Positions 19,090 to 27,840 of a stretch of DNA of 42,748 nt are shown piece after piece. The translations under genes and the position numbers were made by a program. The DNA comes from Gammaproteobacteria bacterium (lineage in GTDB: Bacteria; Pseudomonadota; Gammaproteobacteria; SZUA-152): contig DROS01000002.1 of assembly GCA_011321815.1 (NCBI GenBank), positions 1 through 42,748 of the forward strand, read 5' to 3'. Under the pieces are notes generated by a model. It was not told the DNA's origin. It saw only the letters and a list, made by a program, of their open reading frames with translations, and ran no database searches. The first letter of the stretch is position 1. Every line of letters begins with the position of its first letter.

Positions 19090-19146
19090 ATATTCACCTT
19101 TTACGCTTCAACTCGGACAGACTTTCGGCTAAGCGCGACGTTAGGG
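19090..19146 (+). other. attC-like site, plus orientation (left boundary of the toxin-antitoxin cassette)
   Basis: The right half reads GCGCGACGTTAGGG, matching the R' ends of the better attC sites here, and the core CGGACAGACTTTCG matches their central CGGACA-N-TCCG element. The left R'' box is degenerate. Crossover would fall between 19140 and 19141. Confidence 0.5.
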
Positions 19147-19560
19147 CCTGCTGAGATAATTGTCGATATAGTCGGAAATGGTTATAGCTGTCGAAGGGAA
19201 TTCTTTTAAGATTTTTTTATCTTGCGTAACTAATCGAATGTTGAGGTGGTGGGCAAGCGCAACAAACTCGCAATCATATGCTGAGCAATTGCTCTCATTG
19301 ATTAATGCAAGTACTTGAGAAGAAGAAACGTCGAATTCATTTTGGACCATGATTGATTCGGCTTTCTCTTGAAGTTGCAGTGCCTTTTCAAGGGTAACGA
19401 TTTTCTTTCTAAGGTAAAGTGCTAGAACATTTCGAAATTCACTTCTCCAAAGTACCGGCGCCACCCAATTGGAATCGAGCTGATATAAAGTGTCAATTGA
19501 TTCTGTGTACGAAGTGGGTAATAAAAAATAAGAAATGATGTTTGTATCAGCAACGATCAT
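19141..19560 (-). CDS. PIN-domain toxin (VapC/FitB-like)
   Basis: The 139-residue PIN-domain ribonuclease has the N-terminal acidic motif IVADTNIISYF, a conserved Glu in WRSEFRNVLALY, and the later acidic motif SAYDCEFVALAHHL with LVTQDKKI near the end. Such toxins cleave tRNA or other RNA when freed from antitoxin. Its start overlaps the antitoxin stop (ATGA). Its stop codon TAA is the complement of the first three bases after the attC crossover G/TTAGGG at 19140, so the gene runs exactly to the cassette edge. Confidence 0.88.
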   Translation of the reverse strand: MIVADTNIISYFLLPTSYTESIDTLYQLDSNWVAPVLWRSEFRNVLALYLRKKIVTLEKALQLQEKAESIMVQNEFDVSSSQVLALINESNCSAYDCEFVALAHHLNIRLVTQDKKILKEFPSTAITISDYIDNYLSRP

Positions 19561-19799
19561 GGTCTGCCTTCATTGATGGCTTGCTCGATCTCTTCATCAG
19601 TAAATGCATTAGGATCGATTTGGGCGCGAAGTGTGCGAATTTCAATCAGCTTGTCTTCGGGTGATACCTTTTGGGGAAAAAGAGAGCGTTTCAAACAAAT
19701 AATGACTTCACTGTTAATGCTTCTATGATGCTGTTTTGCAACATGTTTTAGTTCTGAGTACAGGTCGTCAGGGATGTTTTTAATAGTCAAAGCGGGCAC
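19557..19799 (-). CDS. Ribbon-helix-helix antitoxin (FitA/VapB-like)
   Basis: I start this gene at GTG 19799 because a strong AAGGAGG lies 7 bp upstream; the ATG at 19832 or 19862 would place that site inside the gene. The product is 80 residues: PALTIKNIPDDLYSELKHVA, QHHRSINSEVIICL (the FitA/Arc-type ribbon-helix-helix), then a toxin-binding tail with DEEIEQAINEGRP. It should repress its own promoter together with the PIN toxin. Confidence 0.85.
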   Translation of the reverse strand: MPALTIKNIPDDLYSELKHVAKQHHRSINSEVIICLKRSLFPQKVSPEDKLIEIRTLRAQIDPNAFTDEEIEQAINEGRP

Positions 19800-19874
19800 A
19801 GCAGCAACCTCCTTAATATAATTTGTTGGTTTCATTATGGTTGCGTAATGATAGCTGGTCAAGTAGCAATTCAG

Positions 19875-20933: not shown

Positions 20934-20976
20934 AGCTAACGCCGCGGAGGAGTGTCCGTGTTGAAGTGCCTTAGGC
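20934..20976 (-). other. Shortened attC site after the GFA-family gene
   Basis: The minus strand reads CCTAAGGC, then CACGGACACTCCTCCGCGGC, then GTTAGCT. The right half is good, but the R'' box has lost its consensus C and the whole element is only 43 bp, so it is probably a deletion derivative. Confidence 0.5.
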
Positions 20977-21375
20977 ATTATTTGGTGGCCATTCATCATA
21001 TTGTGGAACCCCTTCTGGAATGGTTTCCCATGAGGCTTTAGAGCCAACAAAAATATGCATTCCAAGCTCTATTTCTGGATCTCTATCTACGCAGCCCAAA
21101 GTAACCCCGTGTACTTTTCCTGCATATGTAGCGCATAATGTTGAACCACATATGCTACAGAAAAGAAGGCCAGCCCCATTCTTAGAATCGTAACTGGTTA
21201 GCAACTCTTCTCCACATACCCATGAAAATTCTTCTGGTTCTAATTGGGCATATGCTGAAGCCTGCGCACTAAATGCTTTACGGCACATTGAACAATGGCA
21301 AGAACGTGCATCTCGCAATCTACCCTCTATTTTGTATTGCACTGCGTCACAAAAACATGAACCAGTTATTGCCAT
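20971..21375 (-). CDS. GFA-family (glutathione-dependent formaldehyde-activating-like) zinc protein
   Basis: The 134-residue protein shows the GFA fold cysteine pattern: GSCFCDAVQY, then CHCSMCRKAFSA, then FCSICGSTLC. The family binds zinc and glutathione-like ligands; most members have no assigned substrate. AGAGGA lies before ATG 21375. The gene begins 20 bp downstream of an attI-like GTTAGGC crossover, making it the first cassette behind the left 0.4-kb repeat. Confidence 0.88.
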   Translation of the reverse strand: MAITGSCFCDAVQYKIEGRLRDARSCHCSMCRKAFSAQASAYAQLEPEEFSWVCGEELLTSYDSKNGAGLLFCSICGSTLCATYAGKVHGVTLGCVDRDPEIELGMHIFVGSKASWETIPEGVPQYDEWPPNNA

Positions 21376-21394
21376 TAGATTATTTCCTCTTGAT

Positions 21395-21796
21395 GCCTAA
21401 CTTATTAGTATCAGGCACATTTGCCTGATACTACTGAAAACCGGTCAATTTGCCCTGATATCGGATATTACGGTATATCTCCCCTGTTTTTTTTCGCCCA
21501 AACCTTGTTTCGGGAAGCGCCATGTCAATCAATACCATCTTTCAAATAATCTCATTCTCATCAATATTCAGCAATGCAAATATTCCTCTTTTCAAAAAAA
21601 GGGTACACCCGGTGTACAAAAAAACAGCACATAGATTAACGCCTGATCAGACGGCGATGTGTTAGGCTGCACAAAAAACGCCCTTCCAACTTACAATGGT
21701 TATCTATCCGTCCAAAGCCGGATTGATCGGCCATAGAGGTTGACTGGTTCTTTCGATCAAAGCCGGAAGTTTCCGCGCCACCCTGAAAGCCTCTGT
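21395..21796 (-). repeat. 0.4-kb repeat, copy 1, with attI-like end
   Basis: This stretch matches 27431-27840 in direct orientation at roughly nine bases in ten by eye. On the minus strand it ends with a perfect hairpin (AGTATCAGGCA/TGCCTGATACT, 4-nt loop) and then CTAATAAGTTAGGC, the type of crossover seen in attI sites. It also contains the odd palindrome GTACACC-C-GGTGTAC and an imperfect CGCCTGATCAGACG. No convincing protein is encoded. Confidence 0.85.
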
Positions 21797-22247
21797 GGCT
21801 CCATACGTTATTTGACGTATGCCCCTGTGCCACATGTATTAAAACCCGGCGAGTGTTATCGACATTTTTTATCGGTTGCCAAGTGGCGGTGATAAAAGAA
21901 GGTAAACTAGAATTTGAAAAACAGGAATACGGTACGAGCAATGCTTATAACAATCAGCTGTATGCAATGGTTAGGTTCTTTTGATTTTTGGTTTCGAAAT
22001 AAACTGGAAACACAATTGGTTCACAAAATTAATTTGTATCTGACCCGAATGGCACTAAGTTAAGTGGCGTTATCATGCATTGTATCAACAGCCCGGCCCA
22101 GTTTTCCGGCGGTTTCAGCGACGCCAAATTAATGCTGAACTGGCTTAACTTAGTGACATTCGTATCTGACCCTATTTATTCTAACATGGTTTTTTTGTGT
22201 GCACGTTCTTCATAGGTTCGAATAAAACCCCCAGCCCCATTTTGAAT
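21797..22247. other. Non-coding stretch with hairpin, collapsed attC and MITE
   Basis: No gene is supported here. A CATACGT/ACGTATG hairpin sits at about 21803-21822 inside TGTGGC/GCCACA arms. A compact 31-bp TTATAAC...GTTAGGT element (about 21950-21977) looks like an attC that has lost its middle. A MITE-like element follows at 22047-22161. The minus-strand frame 21636-21941 has no family features. Confidence 0.5.
22047..22161. mobile_element. MITE-like element, 115 bp, with 11-bp target-site duplication
   Basis: Terminal inverted repeats of 18 bp (GAATGGCACTAAGTTAAG and CTTAACTTAGTGACATTC, one mismatch) lie exactly between two copies of GTATCTGACCC (22036-22046 and 22162-22172). The interior of 79 bp has no coding capacity. 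The 11-bp duplication is typical of IS4-group transposition, but the parent family is inferred only from that. Confidence 0.8.
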
Positions 22248-22709
22248 TCACTGAAAGCCTTTAAATCTTGGATCATCCTTGGCAGCTTTAGCGTAACTCC
22301 AAGCGTCGCGAGCAGATCCAGAAGAAGGAACTGGCTTCTCATTCGAAAAACCACACCGGGAATAACGGGGACAACATTTCGCACTAAAGTATCTATTTAC
22401 TTGCTCATATTGACCAACACGTCCAGTAGATTTTTTGGTTGTACCTATATCAACTTTTTTACCATAACCGGGTTTGATATTGACTCGTTTATCGCGAGCC
22501 CCAGAAACATCAAGCTTTACGGTGATCATAGCACTGCATAAATTGAATACTTCTACTTCGCCTTCAGTTCCTAAACTAACGGCTCGACTACATTGCGGCA
22601 TACTAACCCGATCATTTTTACCGCATTTATCTGCTAGGCTGGGAAATGAAGTGAACATCGCCATTATACCAAGAATACAATATACCTTTTTCGAAATGAA
22701 TATCTTCAT
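22248..22709 (-). CDS. Secreted Cys-rich protein of unknown function (cassette gene)
   Basis: The 153-residue protein begins with a signal peptide (ISKKVYCILGIMAMFTSFPSLA). The mature part has about seven cysteines (DKCGKNDRVSMPQCS, FNLCSAMITVKLDVSG, SAKCCPRYSRCGFS), suggesting disulphides in the periplasm or outside. I recognise no family. The AT-rich sequence and position behind a decayed attC support cassette origin. Confidence 0.65.
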   Translation of the reverse strand: MKIFISKKVYCILGIMAMFTSFPSLADKCGKNDRVSMPQCSRAVSLGTEGEVEVFNLCSAMITVKLDVSGARDKRVNIKPGYGKKVDIGTTKKSTGRVGQYEQVNRYFSAKCCPRYSRCGFSNEKPVPSSGSARDAWSYAKAAKDDPRFKGFQ

Positions 22710-22742
22710 GTTGTTACCTTTTATGGATGTGATTTAAAAAAT

Positions 22743-22799
22743 TTATACCGCTAAAATCAGCGGTGCGTTTTTTGCGTTCGCTGGATTTTATTGTTAAGG
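22743..22799 (-). other. attC-like site with altered R' core
   Basis: The minus strand reads CCTTAACAA, then AAAATCCAGCG pairing with CGCTGATTTT with one unpaired C (an extrahelical base, as in attC), then AGCGGTATAA. The last box differs from the expected GCGTTATAA by one base, G for T at the crossover. Total length is 57 bp. Confidence 0.5.
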
Positions 22800-23372: not shown

Positions 23373-23432
23373 CCCTAACGCCGCAAACGAAGCGACACTT
23401 TTGACTGTCCGTGTGAATTTGCATTGTTATGT
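23373..23432 (-). other. attC site after the VOC gene
   Basis: On the minus strand ACATAAC and GTTAGGG boxes enclose a 60-bp imperfect palindrome (GCAAATTCACACGGACA with TGTCGCTTCGTTTGC). This is near the minimum attC size and clearly paired. Confidence 0.75.
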
Positions 23433-25537: not shown

Positions 25538-25645
25538 CCCTAACGTTCGCAGTGAGCGGCAGAATGGAGCGGTGTGAGGCTTGTGCTATCAAAGCACAAA
25601 CGAAACGCCGCGGAATTCTGTCCGGCTCTACTGCGCTTGTTAGCT
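25538..25645 (-). other. attC site
   Basis: AGCTAAC to GTTAGGG on the minus strand, 108 bp, with left arm GCCGGACAGAATTCCGC pairing with GCTCCATTCTGCCGC and inner TTTGTGC/GCACAA. It shares the inner segment with the site at 26224-26329. It overlaps the stop codon of the preceding gene. Confidence 0.8.
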
Positions 25646-26223: not shown

Positions 26224-26329
26224 AGCTAACGTCGCAAATCACCGGAAAATTGTGGCAACGTGAGGCTTGTGGCATTCGCCACAAACGAACGTTGCGGAAA
26301 TTTGTCCGAGTGAATTTGCTTTGTTATGC
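26224..26329 (-). other. attC site after the first cassette gene
   Basis: GCATAAC to GTTAGCT on the minus strand, 106 bp. Left arm GCAAATTCACTCGGACAAAT pairs with TTTTCCGGTGATTTGC; an inner stem GTTTGTGGC/GCCACAAGC is present. This is the best-formed site in the window. Confidence 0.82.
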
Positions 26330-27430: not shown

Positions 27431-27840
27431 GCATAACTTATTAGTATCAGGCAAATGTGCCTGATAATACTGAAAACCGGTCAATTTGACCTGATATTGG
27501 ATATTACGGGACTATTACGGCATATCTGCCCTGTTTTTTTCGCCCGAACCTTGTTTCGGGAGGTGCCATGTCAATCAACACTATCCTTCAAATAATCTCA
27601 TTCTCATCAATATTCAGCAATGCAAATATTCCCCTTTTCAAAAAAGGGTACACCCGGTGTACAAAAAACAGCACATAGATTAACGCCTGATCAGGCGGCG
27701 ATGTGTTGGGCTGCACAAAAAACGCCCCTCCAACTTACGATGGTTATTTATCCGCCCAAAGCCGGGTTGATCGGCCATTGAGGGGGGCTGGTTCTTTCGA
27801 TCAAAACCGGAAGTTTCCGTGCTGCTCTGAAAACCTCTGT
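27431..27840 (-). repeat. 0.4-kb repeat, copy 2, with attI-like end
   Basis: Direct repeat of 21395-21796. On the minus strand it ends ATCAGGCA...TGCCTGATACTAATAA and GTTATGC, 15 bp before the start of the zinc-ribbon gene. Copy 2 has a short insertion (GACTATTACGGC region) relative to copy 1 and a perfect CGCCTGATCAGGCG palindrome. If this is attI plus leader, the integrase gene expected beside it is absent. Confidence 0.85.

Follow-up and report, generated by a model that had tools for sequence, protein, structure and literature searches.

A miniature element with IS4-type ends, and the target preference of its relatives, in a gammaproteobacterial contig

The element and its surroundings

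The stretch of DNA analysed (the window, 42,748 bp) includes a long non-coding tract located between a gene encoding a GFA-domain protein (20971-21375) and an unassigned ORF (22248-22709). The tract hosts a non-coding, 115-bp miniature element of IS4 type (22047-22161), to which no strand is assigned. It is made of a left terminal inverted repeat (22047-22064, plus strand, GAATGGCACTAAGTTAAG), an interior of 79 bp lacking coding capacity (22065-22143, plus strand), and a right terminal inverted repeat (22144-22161, minus strand; CTTAACTTAGTGACATTC as written, GAATGTCACTAAGTTAAG on the minus strand). Between the two ends, 17 of 18 bases are identical. The direct repeat GTATCTGACCC, identical at 11 of 11 bases, encloses the element exactly, its left copy spanning 22036-22046 and its right copy 22162-22172, both on the plus strand; the left copy agrees with the target consensus derived below from other insertions. 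The preliminary description of the locus had proposed a 115-bp element with near-perfect 18-bp ends, flanked by an 11-bp target duplication and devoid of coding capacity, and is confirmed in all these respects: open frames are limited by the length of the element to 38 codons, and no transposase gene is present. The span originally given, 22036-22172, holds for the structure as a whole, as it counts both duplications; the element proper is shorter.

The association of inverted ends and direct repeat at 22036-22172 is beyond chance. Structures in which inverted ends (at least 14 matches out of 18) lie inside a perfect 11-bp direct repeat, all within 600 bp, number one in the window, and none in 100 first-order Markov sequences built from it. 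Allowing one mismatch, GTATCTGACCC occurs at three places in the window, against 0.43 expected, and the two exact ones are both at the element; these are also the sole exact occurrences in the entire assembly (3.58 Mb, 109 contigs). A single strand of the element folds well below shuffled sequences (z -4.66), as predicted by its inverted ends. The subterminal motif TTN(1-3)[GT]CA is present at both interior ends. When the ends of other copies were grouped into 104 clusters, 29 showed this motif, which had been picked by eye and post hoc, against a mean of 5.9 and a maximum of 15 in 500 shuffles. Promoter-like hexamers at the ends (2 versus 0.9 expected) were not accepted as a function.

Short repeats resembling attC sites are found around the element, at 20938-20975, 23383-23431, 25604-25645 and 26288-26328, beside small minus-strand genes encoding GFA, glyoxalase and other proteins. 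Their reading as attC-like is based on the repeats themselves, on comparison by eye and on the general anatomy of attC sites. A strict attC pattern matched no site in the array, and no integrase was found among 27 distinct ORFs, each scanned with Pfam, NCBIfam or both. Repeats and small genes possibly form a cassette cluster without integrase, and the earlier placement of the element within an array is plausible as regards the attC-like repeats, and finds no match in the strict pattern. Short non-autonomous elements in an integron setting are known from Acinetobacter, where, according to PMC3934969 and PMC10969869, 439-bp MITEs flank class 1 integrons in pairs; the window, in contrast, has one 115-bp copy amid attC-like repeats.

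Other repeated sequences populate the region. Two directly repeated copies of a block some 400 bp long lie 6 kb apart (21395-21796 and 27431-27840), and are 90-93% alike in three pieces. The adjoining segment 21797-21893 is 95% alike to part of contig C95 of the same genome, and matches to pieces of 21797-21929 were found in contigs C88, C99 and C52, as well as in relatives such as G019 and G020. The latter area is therefore a dispersed repeat, which possibly belongs to the cassette array. Near an attC-like repeat, the interval 20202-20333 matches the Rfam intron family group-II-D1D4-2 (42.5 bits, cut-off 36); the two ORFs scanned there matched no Pfam family. At the edge of the array, a FitA-like antitoxin is paired with a PIN-domain protein (19141-19862).

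Copies in other genomes

The element is found as a single copy in its own genome, and does not feature there the multiplicity by which MITEs are recognized. A search for its 14-base end, with up to two mismatches, returned 10 places, versus 23 for the reversed control, and with fewer than two mismatches only the two ends of the element itself. The 115-bp query had no match in 23 other genomes of the bacterial family. These counts accordingly lend no support to multiplication in this host. A longer query revealed in some of the same family genomes relatives at 68-72% identity, and family relatives with such ends measure 112-114, 145, 163 and 196-197 bp. Leaving out the nested composite and a long pair judged spurious, 12 of 18 end pairs from the family carry 11/11 duplications. 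One family genome (G003) hosts seven complete copies of 112-113 bp, all with 11/11 duplications, inserted at five different 11-mers. Since the element is single in its host and its relatives are multi-copy in G003, we call it MITE-like, a member by its ends and not by copy number.

The insertion had also been described as fairly recent. The duplication is indeed intact, and dating goes beyond this evidence: no unoccupied version of the locus, which the description had suggested looking for in relatives, was found among 24 genomes, nor in plasmids searched with 21380-22760.

In the whole class, at least 24 of 369 genomes, the host included, match a 137-bp query, made of the element and its duplications, with E values of up to 0.001; the true number may be higher, scoring having been confined to two candidates per genome. 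Of the 32 foreign matches listed, 30 cover an end of the element and extend into the 11-mer outside it; the remaining two (G112 and G329) are interior, short, and located in or beside unrelated open frames, and were judged to be due to chance. A paired-end pattern retrieved six elements in 4 of the 369 genomes, against none for the reversed control among the matches listed. The 18-base end was found in at least 119 stretches of species genomes, from which 80 loci were taken.

Altogether 77 distinct end pairs, including that of the window, were judged among the matches listed. At least 9 of 11 flanking bases match in 49, and all 11 in 38. Pairs no more than 22 bp from the edge of their locus are omitted from this count, which hence excludes the 1503-bp elements L046 and L068, the latter having unlike 11-mers on its two sides. 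Matching 11-mers are missing in the other 28 pairs, among which are two of five long relatives (L158 and L198). In four of the 28 (L154, L199, L211 and L227), the flanks suggest by eye a duplication of 10 bp; others seem recombined or nested, or have different neighbours on the two sides. The four belong to records titled as cyanobacteria, and three of them have one end terminating in AAAAG. Since two Nostoc copies with an end of the same type (L170 and L212) carry 11/11 duplications, the length of the duplication is not fixed in cyanobacterial copies.

After dropping two nested composite pairs (L209, 285 bp, and L283, 158 bp), a set of 47 intact, non-redundant copies was obtained, which comprises the window element and 46 copies from other bacteria with such ends and matching 11-mers. 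Among the matches listed, 44 of the 46 are shorter than 400 bp, and 19 of the 47 measure 111-123 bp. The same ends and duplications are found in Gammaproteobacteria and in assemblies titled as cyanobacteria and Verrucomicrobiales. Element and duplications had no match in plasmids or phages. A 14-base end pattern hit 73 stretches in viral contigs, which were taken as unrelated: among those listed, with ends within three mismatches, none is complete over the 18 bases of the end, and none is accompanied by a partner end. A transposase scan of the viral contigs, able to reach close relatives only, found nothing. CACTAAGTTAAG did not occur in the literature searched, and four motif strings retrieved, among the matches listed, papers on unrelated subjects.

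IS4-family relatives

Such ends also bound transposase genes. Four coding relatives are 1503, 1551, 1554 and 1557 bp long, thus inside the 1400-1650 bp range of autonomous members of the IS4 subgroup; a fifth, L174 (1962 bp), is outside. All five transposases exceed the 115-bit cut-off of the NCBIfam model IS4_1, scoring 220.7 (L046), 211.1 (L179), 199.3 (L198), 174.5 (L158) and 224.1 (L174) bits, and the exact signature Y(2)R(3)E(6)K is present in these and in L223. The end GAATGGCACTAAGTTAAG is found on L158, L174, L179 and L198, all of which have IS4_1 transposases. Duplications flank L046 (11/11), L174 (11/11) and L179 (10/11), and are missing in L158 and L198. A 1503-bp element of genome G263 has ends GAATGGCACTTACTTAAG, two positions off the left end of the window element, and GTATCTGACCC on both sides.

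The full-length parent IS sought in the host genome was not found. The L179 protein has a match in 10 of the 24 family genomes and none in the host, where no transposase of its group was found. Searched against plasmids, the same protein returned 611 records, 610 of which are below 60% identity. The only PF01609 protein found in the host genome, encoded by contig C102, was rejected as parent. It scores 101.9 against the IS4_1 cut-off of 115 and has one internal stop, and its 2.2-kb locus has no such end within five mismatches.

The ends of the window element (GAATG........TTA) fit, by eye, the pattern -AATR--------WTW---- in Table 1 of PMC2266710, and its 11-bp duplication falls inside the 10-13 bp range given there for the IS4 subgroup. 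The element is very probably a non-autonomous IS4-family MITE, and its ends and duplication place it nearest to the IS4 subgroup. Its group shares with that subgroup, as described in the paper, the end pattern, the 10-13 bp duplications, one-gene relatives of about 1.5 kb and the Y(2)R(3)E(6)K signature, and the window copy differs from it in lacking a transposase. The original classification as a MITE-like element with target duplication is likewise supported by the 46 other copies and by the transposase-encoding relatives. The element is genuine and correctly delimited, and is an ordinary member of an already known kind. IS231 of Bacillus is another IS4-family element with duplications of 10-12 bp, whose ends, in the same table, begin with CAT, and not with GAATG as those of the window type. 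A strong apparent insertion specificity is attributed to some members by De Palmenaer et al. (2008, PMC2266710).

The element alone is ordinary, and its value is that of an entry point to a widespread group. The ends, the length of the duplication and the target consensus allow base-precise annotation of such elements.

Target preference and RAYT genes

Both MIC231 and IS231 of Bacillus are IS4-family elements, with a GC-ended target. In the group described here, the 11-mers adjoining the ends are direct repeats, found in either orientation. As they vary among insertions yet agree on the two sides, they represent duplicated target and not element. The centre of the 11-mer is CWG in 33 of the 46 other copies, against a mean of 1.8 and a maximum of 8 in 2000 within-11-mer shuffles, and 33 of 46 start with GGG or end with CCC. 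The symmetrised consensus is GGGTCWGACCC, a quasi-palindrome with A/T-rich arms. The count was redone on the 32 copies found by end patterns alone, because other queries included the 11-mer of the window. CWG was found in 24 of these, against a shuffled mean of 1.2 and a maximum of 7 in 2000, and GGG or CCC in 19 (1 of 3 from the paired-end search and 18 of 29 from the 18-base-end scan). According to a matrix derived from the 32 copies, only four 11-mers in the window score as high as GTATCTGACCC or higher, and two of them are its own copies. The group thus prefers a non-random, quasi-palindromic target, GGGTCWGACCC, of which the window target GTATCTGACCC has the right half only.

Of 127 element-bearing loci, 12 have a RAYT gene at a distance of up to 500 bp, as do none of 29 loci picked by the bare 11-mer and none of 63 viral loci; with a first control this small and a second that is viral, the proximity is suggestive only. 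As a stronger, direct test, the target motif itself was looked for at 30 RAYT loci of the family, drawn from a longer list of family matches. The 150-bp flanks of these genes, 8,772 bp in total, contain 30 occurrences of the heptamer GGGTCWG/CWGACCC, versus 20 in the other 68,150 bp of the loci. It is present in the flanks of 16 of the 30 loci, whereas windows placed at random in these loci would predict 2.2. Tandem motif copies within single loci (L341, L342 and L366, for example) inflate the number of heptamers in the flanks, and not that of loci. All 30 heptamers form an inverted arrangement, with GGGTCWG on the upstream side of the RAYT gene and CWGACCC on the downstream side, which is the orientation of REPs around RAYT genes according to PMC2817692. 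Only two element ends (GAATGGCAC) were found in the 190-bp flanks of the 30 loci, hence the motif is present there without elements.

An IS4-family element inserting in REP sequences, ISRm22, is described by Tobes and Pareja (2006, PMC1525189). By analogy with it, REP-like repeats may serve the group as landing pads. ISRm22 is similarly an IS4-family element with a GC-rich palindromic repeat as target; it is reported with 6-bp repeats within Sinorhizobium REPs, whereas the group of the window features 11 bp and GGGTCWGACCC, and its possible link to REPs is drawn from the motif and the RAYT flanks only. What deserves further attention is the target rule and its connection with the repeats that flank RAYT genes, and the group provides a simple test of whether or not REP-like repeats next to RAYT genes are landing sites for IS4-type elements.

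Three other explanations were weighed against an IS4-type miniature element inserted with an 11-bp duplication. The TCTGACCC sequences might belong to the ends of the element, as parts of a longer inverted repeat without any target duplication. The preliminary description had itself pointed to direct repeats embedded in a longer conserved sequence as the finding that would speak against it, and the matter was taken seriously because TCTGACCC recurs directly outside such ends in many unrelated genomes. In the window and in 37 other pairs, however, the flanking 11-mers are direct and not inverted, identical left and right, and different between insertions (three of the 37 pairs come from the tandem locus L209, and two from the nested L283). 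Moreover, unlike 11-mers, such as GTATTAGATGG (L148), AGTGCTGATTC (L161, 10/11) and CACCCCGGCCT (L222), flank such ends elsewhere. The recurrence of TCTGACCC is explained by target preference, and the reading as a longer inverted repeat is highly improbable.

Just as poor a candidate is a REP- or REPIN-type repeat, moved single-stranded by a RAYT and not by a DDE transposase. The element is short, hairpin-forming and intergenic, and some related copies adjoin RAYT genes; yet such ends bound IS4-family transposase genes, and the repeat found around RAYT genes is the target motif, the element ends in the 190-bp flanks being as few as noted above. RAYT/IS200-type movement is, furthermore, not expected to leave an 11-bp duplication. 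An autonomous IS decayed in situ by internal deletion, in place of a MITE transposed at its present size, is less far-fetched, as the genome has no second copy to show transposition at 115 bp. It remains unlikely in the face of the 111-123 bp class, which accounts for 19 of the 47 intact copies, and of the 112-113-bp form complete seven times in G003.

Under the preferred reading, in which the miniature element belongs to the IS4 family, a transposase of IS4 type provided in trans would bind the ends of about 18 bp, and perhaps the subterminal motif too, and excise the element. It would then cut a quasi-palindromic target resembling GGGTCWGACCC with an 11-bp stagger and insert the element there; repair of the gaps would yield the two GTATCTGACCC copies. 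REP-like repeats would be plausible natural landing pads, the inverted repeats of RAYT genes in the family carrying the core of the motif. The site used in the window is a lone intergenic copy of the motif, comprising half of the palindrome, and a search of the window for RAYT genes found none: REP targeting is at most a possibility for this copy. As no source transposase was found in the assembly, the element can probably no longer move unless a helper is acquired. It is close to an even call, leaning slightly against, that a broad IS4-type lineage, mostly gene-less, has specialised on REP-like repeats kept by a domesticated RAYT transposase, the window copy being an orphan in a gene-cassette-like region. 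If true, one mobile system would be living on landing pads that another maintains.

Elements with such ends occasionally adjoin each other in opposite orientation, their outer ends separated by precisely 11 bp, as found in L046 (1483-1529), L206 (607-653) and L063 (1480-1526). In these pairs it looks as if the second element had used the duplicated target of the first.
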